From an uncultured Rhodopila sp. (lineage in GTDB: Bacteria; Pseudomonadota; Alphaproteobacteria; Acetobacterales; Acetobacteraceae), in the NCBI GenBank assembly GCA_903851415.1, contig CAINOE010000037.1, positions 1-64,000 on the forward strand: a DNA stretch of 64,000 nucleotides. Reading direction: 5' to 3'. A program made the translations under genes and the position numbers. This document shows, piece after piece, positions 32,339 to 57,645 of the stretch. The notes beneath the pieces were generated by a model. That model saw nothing but the letters and a program-made list of their open reading frames with translations. It searched no databases and was not told where the DNA came from. Within the stretch, counting starts at the first letter, position 1. Every line of letters starts with the position of its first letter.

Positions 32339-32920
32339 TCAAATCCCTCCGCTCCCATCGCCACGCCAGTTGGTGACGAAATCGCCTGCCTGCGGACGCG
32401 GAAACGAGGATGATCCGCCAACATTGGTACCTATATAGATAAAGCCAATTATTTCGTCATCCGCGGCCAGCCCCAGCGCAACCTTCACCTCCGGATCATA
32501 CGCCGGCGCTCCCGTCTTCCACACCGCGCCATAGCCCATGGCCGGTGCGGCCAAGACGATCGTCTGCGCCGCGGCGGCAGCCGACGCAATCTGCTCGATC
32601 TCCGGAATCTTGTGCCCCCGACGCAGCCTTGCCGCCACCACCACGATCACCGGCGCCCGCAATGCCTTGGCCCGCTCCTTCTCCAGGATCGCTTCCGAAG
32701 CCGAGGGCTCGCGCCGCAGCAGCGAATCCGCCATCACCTGCCCGAACAAGCCGCGCTGCTCCGTGCCGACGACGACAAAGTGCCAGGGCCGCAGCCGCCC
32801 GTGATCCGGCGCGCGCACGGCGGCGTCGAACATCGTCCGCAACTCCGCCGCCGAGGGACCCGGCGCCTCCAGCTTCAAGGCGGACTCGCGGCTCAGCAAC
32901 AGTTCCAACGCATCCATCAT
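32339..32920 (-). CDS. NAD(P)H nitroreductase, YdjA-like
   Basis: 193 residues from MMDALELLLSRESALKLEAPGPS. FMN-binding nitroreductase fold: RESALKL for the phosphate-binding Arg/Ser, VRAPDHGRLRPWHFVVV, and the C-terminal GLAADDEIIGFIYIGT. The APDHGRLRPW stretch is characteristic of the short YdjA branch. Divergent from the MFS gene. Confidence 0.85.
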   Translation of the reverse strand: MMDALELLLSRESALKLEAPGPSAAELRTMFDAAVRAPDHGRLRPWHFVVVGTEQRGLFGQVMADSLLRREPSASEAILEKERAKALRAPVIVVVAARLRRGHKIPEIEQIASAAAAAQTIVLAAPAMGYGAVWKTGAPAYDPEVKVALGLAADDEIIGFIYIGTNVGGSSSFPRPQAGDFVTNWRGDGSGGI

Positions 32921-33067
32921 GGCTCTCCCGATGCCAGCAGACGTAGGCACCATGCGGCGTTTCGCCAGTCGCCGCGGCGGCGGCGCGTTGCACGGCGCTC
33001 CGACTTCTGGAAGGGTGGCCCTGTCCGCGGCTTGCGGACACCCGGCGCAGCCCCCATTGGAAGCAAG

Positions 33068-34315
33068 ATGCCATCAGGCCAGCCCCTCAAGAGCCGGACC
33101 GTCAGCCGCGTCATGTGGTTCTTCGCCATCGTCTACGCGGTGGAAGGCATCGGCCAGGCGAAATCCGGCATCATCTGGCAGCCGCTGACCTACTTCCTGA
33201 AGCAGACGCAGGGCTGGGACGCGGTGAAGATCAGCGTCTCGCTGGCCGTGTTCGACCTGCCCTGGGTGATCAAGCCGCTCTGGGGCGCGATCTCCGACTT
33301 CGTCCCGCTGTTCGGCTTCCGCCGCCGCCCCTATCTGGTGCTGGCGAACCTCGCCGCCGTGCTGGCGTTCGCCCGGGTGGCGACGCTGAGCACGCCCGCG
33401 TCGCTGATCCCGGCGATCACGATCACCTCGGTCGCGATGGCGGTGTCCAGCACGCTGTGCGGCGCGCTGCTGGTGGAGACCGGCCAGAAGCATGACGCCA
33501 GCCCCAGCCTCGTGAACCAGCAATGGCTGTTTTACAACATCGCGCAGATGGCGGCCGTGCTGCTGGCCGGCTACCTGATCGAGATCCTGCCGCCCGCCGG
33601 CGCCCTGCACGCCGCCGCCTGGATCGCCGCCGCCGCCCCGCTGTCGGTCGTGGCGAGCGTCTGGCTGATCCATGAGGACCGCGCCCGCATCGACCTGCCC
33701 GCGTTGCGCGCCCGCCTCGCCGCCCTGGTGTCGGCGTTCCGCAGCCGCAACCTGTGGCTGGTCGCGGGTTTCCTGTTCCTGTATTATTTCTCCCCCGGCT
33801 TCGGCACCCCGCTCTACTTCGAGATGACCGATCGGCTCGGGTTTTCCCAGGGCTTCATCGGCGTGCTGTCGTCGGTCAGCGCGGGCGGCTGGATCCTCGG
33901 CGGCGTCCTGCACAAGTGGCGCCTGCACAGGCTGAGCCCGCCGGCGCTGCTGCGCCTGAGCATTGCCGGAGGCGTGGCTACAACGCTCTCGTACCTGCTG
34001 CTGGACGGCTACGCCTCCGCGGTGGCGATCTGGCTGCTCAGCGGGGTGGCCGGCATGATCGCCATGATCGCTACGCTGTCGCTGGCGGCGGAGTCATGCC
34101 CGGAAGGCGCCGAGGGGTTTGCCTTCGCCGGCCTGATGTCGATCATCAATTTCGCGGCCCCGCTGTCGGACACCACCGGCTCGGTGCTCTACGAGCATCT
34201 GTTCCACCGAGAGCTCGCCCCGCTGATCGTCCTCTCGGCGGCTGCGACGGCACTGGTGCTTGTGCTGGTTCCCTTGATGGCGTTTCGCCCGCCGAGGCTG
34301 CAGGCCGCGGTCTGA
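33068..34315 (+). CDS. MFS/BT1-like transporter
   Basis: 415 residues from MPSGQPLKSRTVSRVMWFFAIVYAVEGIGQ. About 12 hydrophobic helices, with DLPWVIKPLWGAISDFVPLFGFRRRPYLVL near residues 65-95, a pattern found in folate-biopterin (BT1) type carriers and related MFS proteins. Substrate unknown. The frame extends upstream to 32612, but that part overlaps the divergent nitroreductase. Confidence 0.8.
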   Translation: MPSGQPLKSRTVSRVMWFFAIVYAVEGIGQAKSGIIWQPLTYFLKQTQGWDAVKISVSLAVFDLPWVIKPLWGAISDFVPLFGFRRRPYLVLANLAAVLAFARVATLSTPASLIPAITITSVAMAVSSTLCGALLVETGQKHDASPSLVNQQWLFYNIAQMAAVLLAGYLIEILPPAGALHAAAWIAAAAPLSVVASVWLIHEDRARIDLPALRARLAALVSAFRSRNLWLVAGFLFLYYFSPGFGTPLYFEMTDRLGFSQGFIGVLSSVSAGGWILGGVLHKWRLHRLSPPALLRLSIAGGVATTLSYLLLDGYASAVAIWLLSGVAGMIAMIATLSLAAESCPEGAEGFAFAGLMSIINFAAPLSDTTGSVLYEHLFHRELAPLIVLSAAATALVLVLVPLMAFRPPRLQAAV

Positions 34316-34800
34316 CGCCGCCGGTCCCGGGTCCGAGCCGGGTGCGCTGACCGCCGTTTTTATGTCGCAATAGTGCTCATTCCGCCCTGGCGGCGACGCG
34401 CAGACAAAAATTGATGACACGCTTGTTACCGCGGCTCCCGCCAGCGTTTGAGTAATGTTGCAACGGCGCGCAAGCCGTGACCGGATTCGCTGCCGCCGGT
34501 CCGCCGAATGTCGCAACGAGACCCGGGAGGCCGCGCGGCCCGGCATCCGTAACTGGTTCGGATTGAACCGATTGGTTAAATAATATCACCTTAAGTAAAA
34601 AATGACTACAAATGGGTTTTTTATCGTTCTTTATTACATTGCGCAACTCTTGAAACACGTCGATGCATCCTCAGTCCTTTCCTCTCCCGGCACCGCGTGA
34701 CGAAAAATCGCCGCTCTGCTCACGGGAACGTGATTCAGTTGTTGCAATCGCTTCACTGCCCGCGCTAAGAAAAGATGGTCGAACTCGAAAGGGCCTGCCA
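34316..34800. other. AT-rich leader/promoter region of the repeat-motif peptide
   Basis: No gene. A weak hairpin (cccgggtccgagccggg, 34326-34342) followed by TTTTT at about 34357 could end the transporter transcript. A distinctly AT-rich tract runs from 34560 to 34640, with a perfect palindrome AACCGATTGGTT (34564-34575). A possible promoter for the downstream peptide is TTGCAA (34742-34747), a 17-bp spacer and CTAAGA (34765-34770), about 30 bp before the ATG. Confidence 0.4.
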
Positions 34801-35022
34801 ATGACCACTTCCGTTTCCTCCACCAACGCTTCGCTGCACTCCGCCGCCGCCGCCGGCAACTCGCCGCCGCGTCCGGTTTCCCCCGCCGTGGCCGACACCG
34901 GCCGCATTCGTTTCGGCTCCGGATGCCGGCTGCCGCGTCCCGCCGCACCTGCCGGCGTCGCCGATTCGGGGCGCATCCGGTTCGGCTCCGGCTGCCGCAT
35001 TCCGGCGCCGAGGTCTCGCTGA
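34801..35022 (+). CDS. 73-residue peptide with duplicated GRIRFGSGCR motif (candidate RiPP precursor)
   Basis: The ATG at 34801 follows GAAAGGG. Residues 1-30 are Ser/Ala/Pro-rich and leader-like (MTTSVSSTNASLHSAAAAG). Then come two copies of a 23-residue period: ADTGRIRFGSGCRLP (residues 31-45) and ADSGRIRFGSGCRIP (54-68). Cys42 and Cys65 are the only cysteines. The codons of the two copies differ (ggccgcattcgtttc versus gggcgcatccggttc), so the repeated peptide sequence is held by selection rather than by fresh duplication. No signal peptide or membrane span. The gene stops 80 bp before the DUF6065-like gene on the same strand. I recognise no named family; a modified-peptide precursor is inference from design. 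Confidence 0.7.
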   Translation: MTTSVSSTNASLHSAAAAGNSPPRPVSPAVADTGRIRFGSGCRLPRPAAPAGVADSGRIRFGSGCRIPAPRSR

Positions 35023-35102
35023 CTGCTCGCCGCCCGAGCCTCTACGCTTGCGGCTTCTTGCCTGAAGCTCAGCGGCAATAGTCGACCTGGAGTAAAGCAA
35101 CC

Positions 35103-35903
35103 ATGACGCACACCGGCGCCGTGCTGGAAATCAACCGCCTGATCGAACGCGCCCGTCCACCTCAGCGGGCGGATCGATCCGCAGCCGGCACGCTTCCGAC
35201 CCGGGCATATCGTTACTGCGAAGCAGCAACAAGCGCGACGGGGTTCGGCTGGTGGGTATTTCCGCCGATGGACCTGCAGTTGCTCTGGGACGGCACCGAT
35301 ATCTATTGGTACTACGACGGCGCCGAGGACTGGATGCTGCTGGCGCCGGCAGCCCAGTTCCCGGATTTTTCGAACGCATTCGACGCAGCCGCGCCGGACT
35401 ACCTGCGCGGCTGCGCTCCGCCCTTTCTGACCGTCATGCCGGAACCCGGCCTCGTGCAGATGTGGACCGGGCTGATGGTCCGCACCGCCGAAGACTGGAG
35501 CGCGCTGGTGCGTGCTCCGGCAAACCTGCCGCTGCCCGGCGGATATTCCATCTACGACGGGCTGGTGGAAACCGACCGCTGGTTCGGCCCGCTGATCACC
35601 AACTTCCGCCTGACCCAGATGAACCGGGCGGTGCATTTCAACAGCGACTTCCCGATCATCCAGGTGCAGCCGATACCGCGGATCGCCTACGCCGAGCAGA
35701 CGCTCAACGCGACCTCCTTCACGCCGAACATGGCCGCGATGAACGAACAGGAATGGCGCGCGTACGAAAAAACCATCGCCATCCCCAGTGAAGATCCCGA
35801 CCGGCCGTTCGGCGCCTACGCCGTTGCCGTGCGCAAGCGCCGCCTCAGCGGCTGCCCCGCCCACACCGCGAGCGCGGATGCGCGCCTGATGGAGACATCA
35901 TAG
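35103..35903 (+). CDS. DUF6065-like protein of unknown function
   Basis: 266 residues; start ATG preceded by TGGAGTAAAGC. The core runs from about residue 35 to 200: YRYCEAATSATGFGWWVFPPMDLQ, LLWDGTDIYWYYDGAEDWMLL, LTVMPEPGLVQMWTGLMVRTAEDW, PLPGGYSIYDGLVETDRWFGP, MNRAVHFNSDFPIIQVQPIPR. The assignment to DUF6065 is from memory. It is rich in Trp, Tyr and acidic residues, with no membrane span and no CxxxCxxC radical-SAM site. Its position directly behind the repeat-motif peptide suggests it acts on, binds or is delivered by that peptide. The last 25 residues are basic and poorly conserved in appearance. Confidence 0.6.
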   Translation: MTHTGAVLEINRLIERARPPQRADRSAAGTLPTRAYRYCEAATSATGFGWWVFPPMDLQLLWDGTDIYWYYDGAEDWMLLAPAAQFPDFSNAFDAAAPDYLRGCAPPFLTVMPEPGLVQMWTGLMVRTAEDWSALVRAPANLPLPGGYSIYDGLVETDRWFGPLITNFRLTQMNRAVHFNSDFPIIQVQPIPRIAYAEQTLNATSFTPNMAAMNEQEWRAYEKTIAIPSEDPDRPFGAYAVAVRKRRLSGCPAHTASADARLMETS

Positions 35904-35912
35904 CGCCCGGGC

Positions 35913-38555
35913 TCAACTGACGCCGGCAAGCCTCAGTCCCTCAATGAAGCAGTCAAGGTCCGCCGGCAGCAGCAGCGGGGAGCGGCTCCGCGCTTCCCGC
36001 AACGAAAAATTCGGCTCCAGCTTCAGCAGTTCCTTCAGCATCGCCGCCGCCTCCCGGCCGGCGCGCAGATGACCCAAAGCAGACAGCAGCGCCTTGTAGG
36101 TTGACGAAAAGCCGGGATGCGCCTCACGCGCATGCCGGCCGTGCCGGGCGGCAATCTCGTATTGACCCGTCAGCAGGAACGGCAGCGTCAGCGCCATCTC
36201 ATAAAAGAACCCGTGCGGATCGTACGGGGACAGATGCTGCGCGTGCTCGATGCGGCGGATCGCCTCGGCGTGCTGCCCGAGATAGGCGTGGGCCAGGCCG
36301 GAGTAGCACCAGGCCAGCGCCAGGTTGGGGTTCAGCTCGATCGCCCGGTTGTGCAACCACAGCGCCGCCTGCGAATCCTTGTGCAGGAACGCTCTGACGT
36401 GGCCCGCGACGGTGAACGCGCGGGCGTCTTCCGGATCGATCAAAAGCGCCTCCTGCGCCAGTTGATCCGCGCGCTGGATGGCTCTCGCCGGATCGGCTTC
36501 CCAGCCCTGACCGACGGAATGATGATACCAGTGCGCCAGCCACGAGCGGCAGGCGGCTCTGCCGGGATCCAGTTCGAGCGACCGCTCCAGCAGCCGCCCG
36601 GCCTCCTGGAAACCGGACTGTTCGAGGCAGTAGACCGCCGGTATCGCGCGCAGCAGCAGATCGTAGGCGGTCGGATCGACCTGCGGCCTGGATGCAGCCT
36701 CCCGCCCTTCCCAGACCAGCGCTTCCGGCACGACCTGGGCGGCGGTTTCCGCGGCGATCTGGTCCTGCAGGTTCAGCACGTCCGGCATGCTGCCGCCGAA
36801 ACGCCGCCGCCAGGTGATTTCACCGGAGCCGCGCATGTTGATCAGGCGCACCAGAACGCCGATCTCGCCGTCCTTGCGGCGCAGGCTGCCGTCAAGCAGA
36901 AAGTCGAGGTCAAGCAGCCGCCACCGTTCGGTCTTCCCCGGAGACTCTCCGGCCAGAGCTGCGATCGAAGCGGGCGTGACGCAGGCGATGCCGCGAAACC
37001 GCGCGAATGCCTTGGTGATTTCATCGGAAAGCCCGAGCGAGAAGGCGCGTTCGCTGGACGATCGGGTGGTTTTGAAGGGCATGACCCCGATGCGGATCGT
37101 GTTGCCGGCCGGGACCGCCGCCTCGAATCGCGGCGCCGGGGCCGATCGGCTTGCGGCGGAACTGTCCCGGGCGGACGCCGGACCCGCCTCCTCCGCCGGC
37201 ACGAACTCGGTGTCGCGAACATCCGCCAGCAACCGTTCCGTTTCCACCGAAAACGAGCCGCTCTTGAGCATCCCGCCCACGACCCGCACAAGATCCGCCG
37301 CCCGGTAGGGCTTTTTGAGGAACTCGCAGACCCCGTCGGCGGCCTGTCCTGATCGGACAGCCTCATCGGCGGCGCCCGAGGTCACCAGCGCGCGCAGATC
37401 CGGCAACATCTGGCGGGCGCTGCGGGCCAGGTCCGCGCCGCGCACGCCGCCCGGAAGCACCGCTTCGGTCAGCAGGACATGGATGCGTTCGTCGGAAACG
37501 AGATACGCCAACGCTCCGGCAGCGTCCGCCGCCGGCAGGCAACGGTAGCCGGACTGCGTCAGGATCTCGCAAATCGTGGTCCGCAGATCCTGGTTCGGTT
37601 CAACGATCAGGACGCTCTGATTGTTGCCGGCGGGGCCAAGCGCCCCCGCCCGCGCCACCGGCTCGGCCCGGGTCCCTGAGGCACGCGGCAGGAACAGCGA
37701 AACCGTCGTTCCGGTGCCGGCGATGCTGCGCAGCTCGACCCAGCCGCCCGATTGACCGGCGAAACCGTGTACCTGGGCCAGCCCCAGTCCGCTGCCCTTG
37801 CCGATCGGCTTGGTGGTGAAGAACGGCTCGAAGACTTTGTCCTGCAACTCCGGCGGAATGCCCACGCCGGTGTCCTTGACGTCGATCCGGACGGTGTCGC
37901 CGACATGCTGCGGCGCAGCGCGGCCCCGCTGCGCCTTGGCCGGCTGGTTATGACACGAAATTTGCACGCTGCCGCCCCCTGGCATGGCATCCCGCGCGTT
38001 CAGCACCAGGTTCAGTACAGCCGATTCCAGTTGCCTCGGGTCAACCCGGCAGGTCCACAGGTCCGGCTCGGACAGCAACAGCACCCGCACGGTTTCGCCG
38101 GCCGCCTGACCCAACAACTCGTGCATTGCCGAGATCACCTCATAGACGGAGGTGGTCTCCGGCCGCAGCATCTGGTTGCGGGAGAACGCCAGCAACTGGC
38201 CGGCCAGCCGTCCGCCGCGTTCCGCCGCACGCTCTATCATTTCCGCCCGGCGGACGCTCTCGGCATCGCCGCGGGTTTCGGCACCGATCCTGAGGGCCGT
38301 GGCGTTGCCCAGGACGACGGTCAGCAGGTTGTTGAAATCATGCGCAACCCCGCCGGTGAGCCGGCCCAGCGACTCCATTTTCTGCGCCTGATCGCGGGAC
38401 AGGTCGGGCTGTCCGGCATCGCCAACCAGCGTCCCATTCAGCGAAATGGCCGGTTTGCCGAACCCGTTCGGCGGTCCGCCCCGCGTATCCCTGACCAGCC
38501 GGACCGCATCGCGGACAGGTCGCCAAAGCCCGGCGATCCAGTGGCCGTCACGCAT
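35913..38555 (-). CDS. Hybrid histidine kinase with pseudo-receiver, TolB-like and TPR domains
   Basis: About 880 residues from ATG 38555 (the frame is open to a TTG at 38597). Order: HisKA with LGRLTGGVAHDFNNLLTVVLGN (near residue 70), HATPase with NLVLNARDAMP, KDTGVGIP and GKGSGLGLAQVHG, a receiver-like domain (about 310-425), then a TolB/adenylate-cyclase-associated segment (TIRIGVMPFKTTRSSSERAFSLGLSDEI) and six or so TPR-like repeats to the C-terminus. In the receiver the acceptor Asp is Glu (HVLLTEAVLPGG, codon at 37466-37464) and the acidic pair reads VEPNQD, while the lysine is kept (FLKKPY). No sensor or membrane domain. It lies 106 bp downstream of an XRE regulator on the same strand and is convergent with the DUF6065-like gene. 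Confidence 0.85.
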   Translation of the reverse strand: MRDGHWIAGLWRPVRDAVRLVRDTRGGPPNGFGKPAISLNGTLVGDAGQPDLSRDQAQKMESLGRLTGGVAHDFNNLLTVVLGNATALRIGAETRGDAESVRRAEMIERAAERGGRLAGQLLAFSRNQMLRPETTSVYEVISAMHELLGQAAGETVRVLLLSEPDLWTCRVDPRQLESAVLNLVLNARDAMPGGGSVQISCHNQPAKAQRGRAAPQHVGDTVRIDVKDTGVGIPPELQDKVFEPFFTTKPIGKGSGLGLAQVHGFAGQSGGWVELRSIAGTGTTVSLFLPRASGTRAEPVARAGALGPAGNNQSVLIVEPNQDLRTTICEILTQSGYRCLPAADAAGALAYLVSDERIHVLLTEAVLPGGVRGADLARSARQMLPDLRALVTSGAADEAVRSGQAADGVCEFLKKPYRAADLVRVVGGMLKSGSFSVETERLLADVRDTEFVPAEEAGPASARDSSAASRSAPAPRFEAAVPAGNTIRIGVMPFKTTRSSSERAFSLGLSDEITKAFARFRGIACVTPASIAALAGESPGKTERWRLLDLDFLLDGSLRRKDGEIGVLVRLINMRGSGEITWRRRFGGSMPDVLNLQDQIAAETAAQVVPEALVWEGREAASRPQVDPTAYDLLLRAIPAVYCLEQSGFQEAGRLLERSLELDPGRAACRSWLAHWYHHSVGQGWEADPARAIQRADQLAQEALLIDPEDARAFTVAGHVRAFLHKDSQAALWLHNRAIELNPNLALAWCYSGLAHAYLGQHAEAIRRIEHAQHLSPYDPHGFFYEMALTLPFLLTGQYEIAARHGRHAREAHPGFSSTYKALLSALGHLRAGREAAAMLKELLKLEPNFSLREARSRSPLLLPADLDCFIEGLRLAGVS

Positions 38556-38660
38556 GTTCAAGAATCCGTGTTGCTTGCCACGGCTTCGTATAGCCAAGCC
38601 AGGCGCCGAAGCAAAGCTTCATGCACGAACTCGATCCCCGGCCGATCGGCCATGGAGGTC

Positions 38661-56313: not shown

Positions 56314-57645
56314 CTATCCGCCCGCCATCGTCAGCCCGTCGATCCGCACCGTCGGCGAATCCGTCCCGCGCCGGAACCGCAGATCGGACGCCGCCACCAT
56401 GTTGGCGAACATTTCCACCAAATTCCCAGCCACCGTCACCTCCGCCACCGGCTCGGCCAGAGCACCGTCGCGGATCATGAAGCCGGCCGCGCCGCGGCTG
56501 TAATCGCCGGTGACGCCGTTCACGCCCATGCCGATCATCTCGGTGATGTAGAGACCTTCCCTGATATCGGCCATCAGCTCGGCCGGCGTCAGCGCCCCGG
56601 GGGCCAGATACAGATTGGTCGTCGATGGTGACGGCGGCCCGCTGGTGCCGCGCGCCGCGTGCCCCGTCGACACCATCCCGAGCTGCCGGGCCGATCGGCT
56701 GTCGAGCAGCCAGGTCGTCAGCACGCCATCCTCGATCAGGGCGCACGCCCGTGTCGGCGTGCCCTCCCCGTCGAACAGCCGCGACCGCAGCCCGCGCACC
56801 CGCCGCGGATCGTCGTGGATATTGATGCCGGGGGCGAACACGCGCTGATGCAGCTTCTCCTTCAGGAAGCTGGTGCCGCGCGCGACGCTGGAGCCGTTGA
56901 TCGCGCCGGCGAGATGGCTGAGCAATCCGCCGGCGACGCGCGGATCAAATACCACCGGCAGCTTCGCCGTGTTCGGCCGCGCCGGATTGAGCCGCGCGAT
57001 CGCCCGCTCCCCCGCGCTGCGGCCGATGCTGACCGGATCGTCCAGGTCGGACATATAGACCGTGCTGTGATAGTCGTAGTCCCGCTGCATCTCCGTCCCC
57101 GTCCCGGCCAACGCGGTGGCGGAGATCGAATGGCTGGTGCCGGCGCGATGTCCGGCGAACCCCGCGGAGGTCACCAGGACGACTTCGTTGCGGCCATAGC
57201 CGGCATCGGCGCCCTCGGAGTTGGTCACGCCGTGCACGGAAAACGCCGCCTCCTCGGCCGCCGCGGCGCGCGCAGCCAACTCATCCGGGGTCGGCTCCGC
57301 CGGATCGGCCATGTCGAGATCGAAATCCTCCGGCGGCGCCCAGGTCTCAGCGAGGCCGGTGAACGGGTCCTCCGGCACGACCTTGGCCATGGCAACCGCC
57401 CGCTCCACCAGGCCCGGGAAACCGGCCGGGTCGAGCGAGGTGGAGGACACGATGGCGGCGCGCCTGCCGACGAACACCCGCAGCCCGAGGTCCCGCCCCT
57501 CCGAGCGCTCCAGATGCTCGGTCTTGCCCTGCCGCGAAGACACCGACAGCGACGTGCCGTTGACCAGCACCGCATCCGCGGCATCGGCCCCGGCCGTCCG
57601 CGCCTGGCGGATCAGGTCGCCGAGAAGGGAAATGTAGTCGGTCAT
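56314..57645 (-). CDS. pmbA: TldD/PmbA family metalloprotease-like protein (TldE/PmbA)
   Basis: 443 residues: GTSLSVSSRQGKTEHLERSEGRDLGLRVFVGRRAAIVSS in the N-terminal domain; PVVFDPRVAGGLLSHLAGAINGSSVARGTSFL and MIGMGVNGVTGDYSRGAAGFMIRDG near the C-terminus, both characteristic of PmbA. TldD and PmbA form a complex that trims peptides such as microcins and antitoxins; the tldD partner is not in the window. The metal-site HExxxH belongs to TldD and is absent here, as expected. Confidence 0.93.
   Translation of the reverse strand: MTDYISLLGDLIRQARTAGADAADAVLVNGTSLSVSSRQGKTEHLERSEGRDLGLRVFVGRRAAIVSSTSLDPAGFPGLVERAVAMAKVVPEDPFTGLAETWAPPEDFDLDMADPAEPTPDELAARAAAAEEAAFSVHGVTNSEGADAGYGRNEVVLVTSAGFAGHRAGTSHSISATALAGTGTEMQRDYDYHSTVYMSDLDDPVSIGRSAGERAIARLNPARPNTAKLPVVFDPRVAGGLLSHLAGAINGSSVARGTSFLKEKLHQRVFAPGINIHDDPRRVRGLRSRLFDGEGTPTRACALIEDGVLTTWLLDSRSARQLGMVSTGHAARGTSGPPSPSTTNLYLAPGALTPAELMADIREGLYITEMIGMGVNGVTGDYSRGAAGFMIRDGALAEPVAEVTVAGNLVEMFANMVAASDLRFRRGTDSPTVRIDGLTMAGG

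Follow-up and report, generated by a model that had tools for sequence, protein, structure and literature searches.

A tandem-unit peptide paired with a divergent DUF6065 protein in Acetobacteraceae: a candidate leaderless multi-core peptide system linked to a TPR regulator

A short gene for a peptide made of tandem units and the adjacent gene for a divergent DUF6065 protein form a conserved unit, and this family of gene pairs, frequent in Acetobacteraceae, is rare among the other Alphaproteobacteria. The pair was examined in a 64,000-nucleotide stretch of DNA from an uncultured Rhodopila sp., which is called the window below. The reading that we prefer, and that we rate a little short of an even chance, is that the peptide is a leaderless multi-core RiPP-like precursor, recognized and probably processed by the DUF6065 protein, with the pair under control of a TPR regulator. 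The pairing, the repeat architecture, the selection on the repeats, the correlated divergence of the two partners and the linkage to a regulator are present in the data; that DUF6065 is an enzyme modifying the peptide is what we infer.

The precursor gene is a 73-aa ORF (34801–35022, forward strand) with two 15-residue units on the same strand, DTGRIRFGSGCRLPR at 34894–34938 and DSGRIRFGSGCRIPA at 34963–35007, the period being 69 bp or 23 residues. The DUF6065 gene (35103–35903, forward strand, 266 aa), encoding a candidate enzyme or receptor for the peptide, follows on the same strand after 80 bp, and the coordinates thus bear out the layout described in the initial annotation, namely two copies on a 23-residue period with the DUF6065 gene 80 bp downstream. 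The closest relative, in which the frame is open for only 77 codons, supports 34801 as the start. Neither a signal peptide nor a conserved leader was seen by eye in the 73-aa peptide, and it has no match in Pfam, NCBIfam or PHROGs. The upstream neighbour is an MFS transporter gene of the BT1 family (32612–34315, forward strand, by Pfam), a possible exporter, and the downstream neighbour encodes a protein with HisKA, HATPase, receiver and TPR parts by Pfam (35913–38597, reverse strand), the TPR half of which is homologous to BTAD/wHTH-TPR regulators at other DUF6065 loci. The genome (7.09 Mb in 215 contigs) has two DUF6065 genes, on contigs C37 and C65.

The codons of the repeats indicate purifying selection. 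It had been claimed at the outset that the two copies use different codons for the same residues and that the peptide is under selection, and both points stood. Within the GRIRFGSGCR stretch the two copies differ by synonymous changes only, and over the 16 codons compared between them (ADTGRIRFGSGCRLP plus the next codon) there are 6 synonymous and 3 non-synonymous differences. Codon conservation among close relatives, the lack of which was to have told against the peptide, was also found: in the comparison with the relative whose partner is 93% identical, 1 of the 30 repeat codons has a non-synonymous change and 10 have synonymous changes only, versus 19 and 8 of the other 43 peptide codons. 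For the closest relative the dN and dS values are 0.016 and 0.64 in the repeats and 0.36 and 0.68 in the other peptide codons (dN/dS of 0.025 versus 0.52), and 0.038 and 0.38 in the DUF6065 gene. Against a 77% relative, non-synonymous changes occur at 6 of 30 repeat codons, four of which are Ser and Cys replaced by Ala in both copies. Could the peptide be a chance ORF over GC-rich repeats? The genome is GC-rich with many spurious ORFs, and a 397-aa antisense ORF runs across both genes, but the codon evidence refutes this explanation, and the position and strand bias of the peptide in the profile searches described below count against it as well; its probability is negligible. The antisense ORF itself (34671–35864, reverse strand), which overlaps both genes, is taken as a GC-rich artefact.

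A homologue of the window DUF6065 protein is present in 45 of 98 genomes, its own included: all 32 other genomes of the genus, 11 of 25 other genomes of the family and 1 of 40 genomes of the class. Another set of 385 genomes drawn from the class contains five that match at E 1e-20 or better, the window's own among them. Among the best 80 of 256 places the closest relatives are uncultured Rhodopila, the top partner being 93% identical, and Rhodopila globiformis, Acidisphaera, Elioraea, Roseomonas acroporae and many metagenome bins are also found there. DUF6065 genes of the window type occur further on 18 IMG/VR contigs and on two Rhizobium plasmids.

How regularly does the peptide accompany the DUF6065 gene? 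After repeats of one partner sequence were removed, 184 loci were reduced to 139, and for 110 of these the upstream sequence extends to 600 bp or more. The upstream regions served to build a 15-position profile of the unit, which was run at E 0.01 over the 10,850 stop-to-stop frames located up to 1.5 kb from the 139 genes. It matched upstream on the same strand at 101 of the 139 loci (84 of the 110 with the longer upstream sequence and 17 of the other 29), and when each half of the loci was searched with a profile from the other half, at 98 of 139 (82 of 110 and 16 of 29). Neither run gave a peptide match on the opposite strand within 1.5 kb of the 139 genes. Three matches lay elsewhere in both runs (L145, L160 and L071), and on reading those at L145 and L160 are artefacts of start choice and of an N-gap. 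At L071 a single-unit peptide (SRRIILGGGCRLPK) is located downstream of the DUF6065 gene, not upstream. A repeat or variant unit is visible by eye in 17 of the 26 profile misses among the 110 (L041, L066, L070, L077, L079, L080, L084–L088, L125, L145, L179 and L215–L217), and no upstream peptide was found by profile and eye in 9 of the 110 loci (L071, L123, L146, L176, L181, L182, L184, L185 and L187). The Elioraea loci L181, L184 and L185 have a DUF6065 gene of the subfamily, no upstream peptide was seen there, and regulator cluster c1 is absent from the fetched flanks; peptide loss or a different substrate is possible in these cases.

Of 24 canonical DUF6065 genes, those scoring above 200 bits with the Pfam model, none has the motif G[KR][VI]x[LFI]G upstream on the coding strand, which rules out a general link between DUF6065 and a peptide and assigns the link to one divergent subfamily. 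The expectation of the initial annotation that DUF6065 homologues have such a peptide beside them therefore holds for that subfamily, with the 17 loci recognized by eye added to the 84 of 110, and fails for canonical members. The canonical search covered 27 loci, and one of its three weak or partial matches (L112) has a lone motif-like string at −672. Neighbours of canonical DUF6065 genes vary by locus (14 loci, DUF6065 recognized in 13), and most clusters occur in no more than five loci. LON-substrate-like and thioredoxin-like genes, so named by eye, are near DUF6065 in 5 of the 14 (L226–L239). A composite unit query matched 17 of 21 searched genomes with the DUF6065 subfamily and 0 of 9 genomes of the same family without it. 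The distances of peptides and of DUF6065 proteins are correlated (r 0.62, n = 96), with 0 of 2000 permutations as high, a correlation that could stem from shared ancestry alone.

The half common to the units is D-x-G-[KR]-[VI]-x-[LF]-G, with a variable core after it. The pattern by which units were extracted from 96 precursors demands Gly at position 8 and allows a limited choice at positions 3, 4, 5 and 7, which by itself accounts for part of the conservation there; position 1, which is free in the pattern, is Asp in 95% of the distinct units. Gly at position 8 is not universal, as seen from the Rhizobium plasmid peptide (annotated as a hypothetical protein), whose three units end in VHIANKSP[MA]F. 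The cores (positions 9–15) differ by precursor and include GSGCRLP in the window, GGGFRLP, GAGYRLP, GGAARLP, GGFAPTL, GGMSPAL and GNMSPAF, with NMSPAFK also found elsewhere in the family. The cysteine motif, which had been put forward as the defining feature, does not survive this comparison: Cys is not conserved in the family but lineage-specific, occupying a variable core position where other residues also occur, and cysteine as the active feature is ruled out. The family thus has short ribosomal precursors with a conserved recognition part and a variable core, as RiPP precursors do. Copies counted per precursor range from 1 (39 of 96) up to 19, a range beyond that of the initial annotation, and these counts are minima because the pattern skips divergent copies. 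Arrays of short period have units of 7 residues (TIGGGYR; L084 and L085) or 11 residues (KVKLGMMAPAF; G617). Long unit arrays seem to break assemblies, with contig ends in G005, G007, G010, G012, G022, G025 and G026, so that copy numbers are underestimated and some peptides are separated from their DUF6065 gene. Orphan arrays on contigs without DUF6065 were considered and set aside, since all seven fetched contigs have the array at the contig end and are probably assembly breaks.

Within one precursor the core is usually the same in all copies despite differing codons. Core positions 9–11 differ in 2% of copy pairs within multi-copy precursors versus 44–79% between precursors, and at positions 2, 4, 6, 13 and 15, 19–41% of copy pairs differ within precursors. 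Among 42 precursors with 2–5 copies, 25 have a mean of at least three synonymous differences between copies, and residues 8–12 are identical in all 25 of these. Five of the 42 differ within residues 8–12 (L124, L134, L169, L171 and L196), L124 being a mis-registered unit in a long frame. DNA homogenization alone would not spare the synonymous and flanking differences, and core identity therefore looks selected, though recently duplicated units kept by purifying selection would give a similar picture.

In the mechanism that we favour, the precursor would be a string of short units, each with its own recognition half and an adjacent variable core, so that no separate leader would be needed. The DUF6065 protein, with its predicted dUTPase-type fold, would bind the recognition half and modify or process each unit; one precursor would give several copies of one putative product, the identity of which would be set by the core. 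The TPR regulator would control expression and may sense the product, as a BTAD/wHTH-TPR protein in most lineages and as a histidine kinase-receiver-TPR protein here. A different view, which we think rather unlikely although it deserves weight, is that the peptide stays unmodified and is a ligand or inhibitor of DUF6065, the latter acting as a dUTPase-like regulator and copy number tuning avidity. Trimeric dUTPases are known as protein-binding regulators, several of the structural matches listed for the partner being complexed with, or studied for, the repressor Stl as far as their descriptions go, and units with a fixed recognition half that diverge together with the partner would suit a ligand. 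However, periods of 7 or 11 residues would be too tight for one globular partner of ~29 kDa per unit, and a binding motif need not precede a hypervariable core that is kept identical across copies; for these two reasons processing is favoured over permanent multivalent binding.

The partner had been described as DUF6065-like, and Pfam agrees: PF19541 matches with 42.2 bits (34.5 in a second search) against a cut-off of 26.6, over residues 116–212 only, which makes the window protein a member of a divergent subfamily. A dUTPase-like fold with altered motifs is predicted for it, which the initial annotation had not suggested. The AlphaFold2 model (69-sequence alignment, pLDDT 91.9, pTM 0.85) gave 92 Foldseek matches to the PDB at E ≤0.001, and among the 50 listed all are dUTPases; the best listed, 3ecy, has E 2.7e-5, probability 1.00, TM 0.75 by target and 0.37 by query, and 13% identity. 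The predicted monomer thus has the fold of trimeric dUTPases (PF00692). Searched by sequence, the PDB gave a best match of E 0.46. An hhalign comparison with 18 dUTPases of relatives had a probability of 0.4% and E 0.16, which is not significant, and dUTPase homology by sequence profile was not accepted; the alignment was in the expected register and covered motifs II–IV only, with GLVETD opposite motif III (GTIDxDYRG) and PIIQ opposite motif IV (RIAQ), in the usual I–V numbering. Unlike trimeric dUTPases, the subfamily has, by reading of the alignments, no counterpart of motif I (AGMDL) and of the C-terminal glycine-rich motif V among the five catalytic motifs, and RPRSG is replaced by RAPAN. 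A separate ordinary dUTPase is encoded in the window genome (G000:C211). The canonical DUF6065 proteins share the GxVETD stretch.

When 98 subfamily proteins were compared with 24 canonical ones, 18 residues were conserved in both, including C39, N141, E156, D158 and N167, and 45 in the subfamily alone, including R137, R169, Q119 and W121; no histidine is among the conserved residues. An extra stretch of the subfamily (about residues 66–107) has conserved W69, F93, A97 and P98 without canonical counterpart. Prediction of the complex, which had been proposed as a check, gave a negative result: in a single AlphaFold run the peptide, tethered ahead of DUF6065 in one chain, was disordered, with a pLDDT of about 40, a result weakened by having only four fused rows and no control. 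Several observations stand against the processing reading. No catalytic residue or cofactor site is established in DUF6065, which has no conserved histidine, and to this are added the failed docking, no exporter or protease across the family, the insignificant dUTPase profile, the 9 of 110 loci without peptide and the core differences in 5 of 42 precursors.

A TPR protein cluster, likewise new relative to the initial annotation, is present in 53 of 84 loci with usable flanks, in 52 of them within 5 kb. In all 53 it is on the opposite strand, either divergent upstream or convergent downstream; in G617, from another family, the regulator is directly upstream on the same strand. Four non-kinase regulators were tested and have a Trans_reg_C and/or BTAD match ahead of the TPR part, a layout of wHTH and/or BTAD plus TPR repeats like that of BTAD/SARP-type regulators and RRNPP receptors. 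Unlike BTAD/SARP regulators, the window protein and those of three to four close relatives have a histidine kinase in place of the DNA-binding half (4 of the 53 loci: L118, L119, L120 and L122), the window protein having a receiver as well. The kinase-TPR protein matches 56 places in the window genome, most via the kinase, and its TPR half has, apart from itself on C37, a strong match on C65 and weaker ones on C137 and C9. The two DUF6065 genes also map to C37 and C65. A BTAD-TPR query at E 1e-70 or better gave 47 matches in 24 of 35 genomes. For 29 of these matches a DUF6065 gene is no more than 6 kb away, and of the remaining 18 at least five start in the first 500 bp of a contig. The regulator was found in 23 of 26 genomes with DUF6065 and in 1 of 9 without. 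In several genomes (e.g., G005, G010, G012, G018 and G022) there are two or three DUF6065 loci, each accompanied by its own copy of the regulator, which argues for a functional link beyond synteny, although not every DUF6065 gene has one.

A TPR regulator linked to a peptide gene is also what is seen in RRNPP systems, and it suggests a signalling role; the comparison with RRNPP receptors is one of domain layout, and peptide sensing by the linked regulator is putative. Yeast alpha-factor is a multi-copy peptide pheromone. The repeats might likewise be a multi-copy peptide pheromone, with DUF6065 as maturation factor and the TPR regulator as receptor, in analogy to RRNPP. The regulator's proximity in 52 of 84 loci and for 29 of 47 matches in the 35 genomes, the strong TPR-half homologue on C65 and the pherotype-like pattern of cores, the same within and different between precursors, would fit such an arrangement. 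Yet no signal sequence was seen, no exporter or importer is consistently present, and G097, G602 and G691 (3 of 26 searched genomes with DUF6065) have the pair without the regulator, so that we regard it as improbable.

Of the known systems that were compared, none has all its features present here, and the system is taken as new on that ground. Multi-core RiPP precursors exist, for example microviridin precursors with several cores (PMC5934393); like these, the present family has several cores per precursor and an adjacent candidate processing gene, and unlike them it has no separate leader in view and a modification of the core that is a candidate only. The partner also differs from those of RiPP systems in having no Pfam match to ATP-grasp, radical SAM, YcaO, lanthionine synthetase or DUF692. 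In open-access literature we found no paper that names DUF6065, most subscription papers and all preprints lying outside that search. If the product is a modified peptide, it would represent a new class of RiPP; an orphan Pfam family would gain a function, with a dUTPase fold acting on peptides, and the cores of a new family of genetically encoded peptides could be deduced straight from genome sequence (96 precursors have readable units). A wider picture is one that we entertain only tentatively and think doubtful as a whole: leaderless tandem-core products or signals, a dUTPase fold turned from nucleotide chemistry to a peptide-modifying or -excising enzyme, and lineage-specific cores read by a dedicated TPR regulator, together a Gram-negative counterpart of RRNPP pheromone systems.

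The remaining neighbours vary. Thirteen neighbours (24834–52493) were scanned with Pfam and none belongs to a known RiPP enzyme class, in agreement with the earlier remark that no radical SAM, YcaO, lanthionine synthetase or DUF692 gene is near. Among neighbour clusters of 84 loci there is no exporter or protease with family-wide linkage; of the 84 fetched loci, 4 have a member of the cluster of the window MFS gene (c32), and the annotation of one of the two Rhizobium plasmids shows a different MFS gene downstream of the pair. A small neighbour, c2 (29 of 84 loci), was rejected as a third part, as it is single-copy in 21 of 21 searched genomes of the genus and only 9 of the 21 copies are by a DUF6065 gene. 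A YeiH-like gene (c3, 25 of 84) and TldD (4 of 84) were taken as positional neighbours. TldD/PmbA processes microcin B17. Four closely related loci (L166, L190, L192 and L195) have a gene that is TldD-like by similarity and ends 1–2 kb upstream of DUF6065, and another such gene is beside a canonical DUF6065 gene (L230); in the window a PmbA/TldD-family peptidase gene (56314–57645, reverse strand, by Pfam) is ~20 kb from the pair.

The two-gene layout, and the terminase gene that 13 of 84 loci have ~2 kb downstream of the pair, could point to a module for toxin-antitoxin function or phage defence, the peptide being either the toxin or the antitoxin and its partner an effector with a dUTPase fold. 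This is very unlikely, since neither gene was matched in PADLOC at E 0.01, where two regulators gave weak TPR or receiver matches, and the DUF6065 protein has no match in 50,697 phage records; presence in all 32 other genomes of the genus and an attached regulator are also unlike a mobile module. Across PADLOC, NCBIfam and PHROGs the single match of the DUF6065 protein is a PHROG of unknown function, at E 0.004. In all, 14 of 84 loci have a terminase-like gene. It is located ~2 kb downstream of DUF6065 in L125, L126, L138, L140, L198–L200, L202, L203, L205, L207, L211 and L212 and at 9 kb in L169, and in 13 of the 14 loci the same two or three genes then follow. By eye these are portal- and capsid-like, Pfam confirming the terminase only (in L199, where this was tested). 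Such a neighbourhood may be prophage or gene-transfer-agent-like, and it may be the reason that IMG/VR has contigs with DUF6065.
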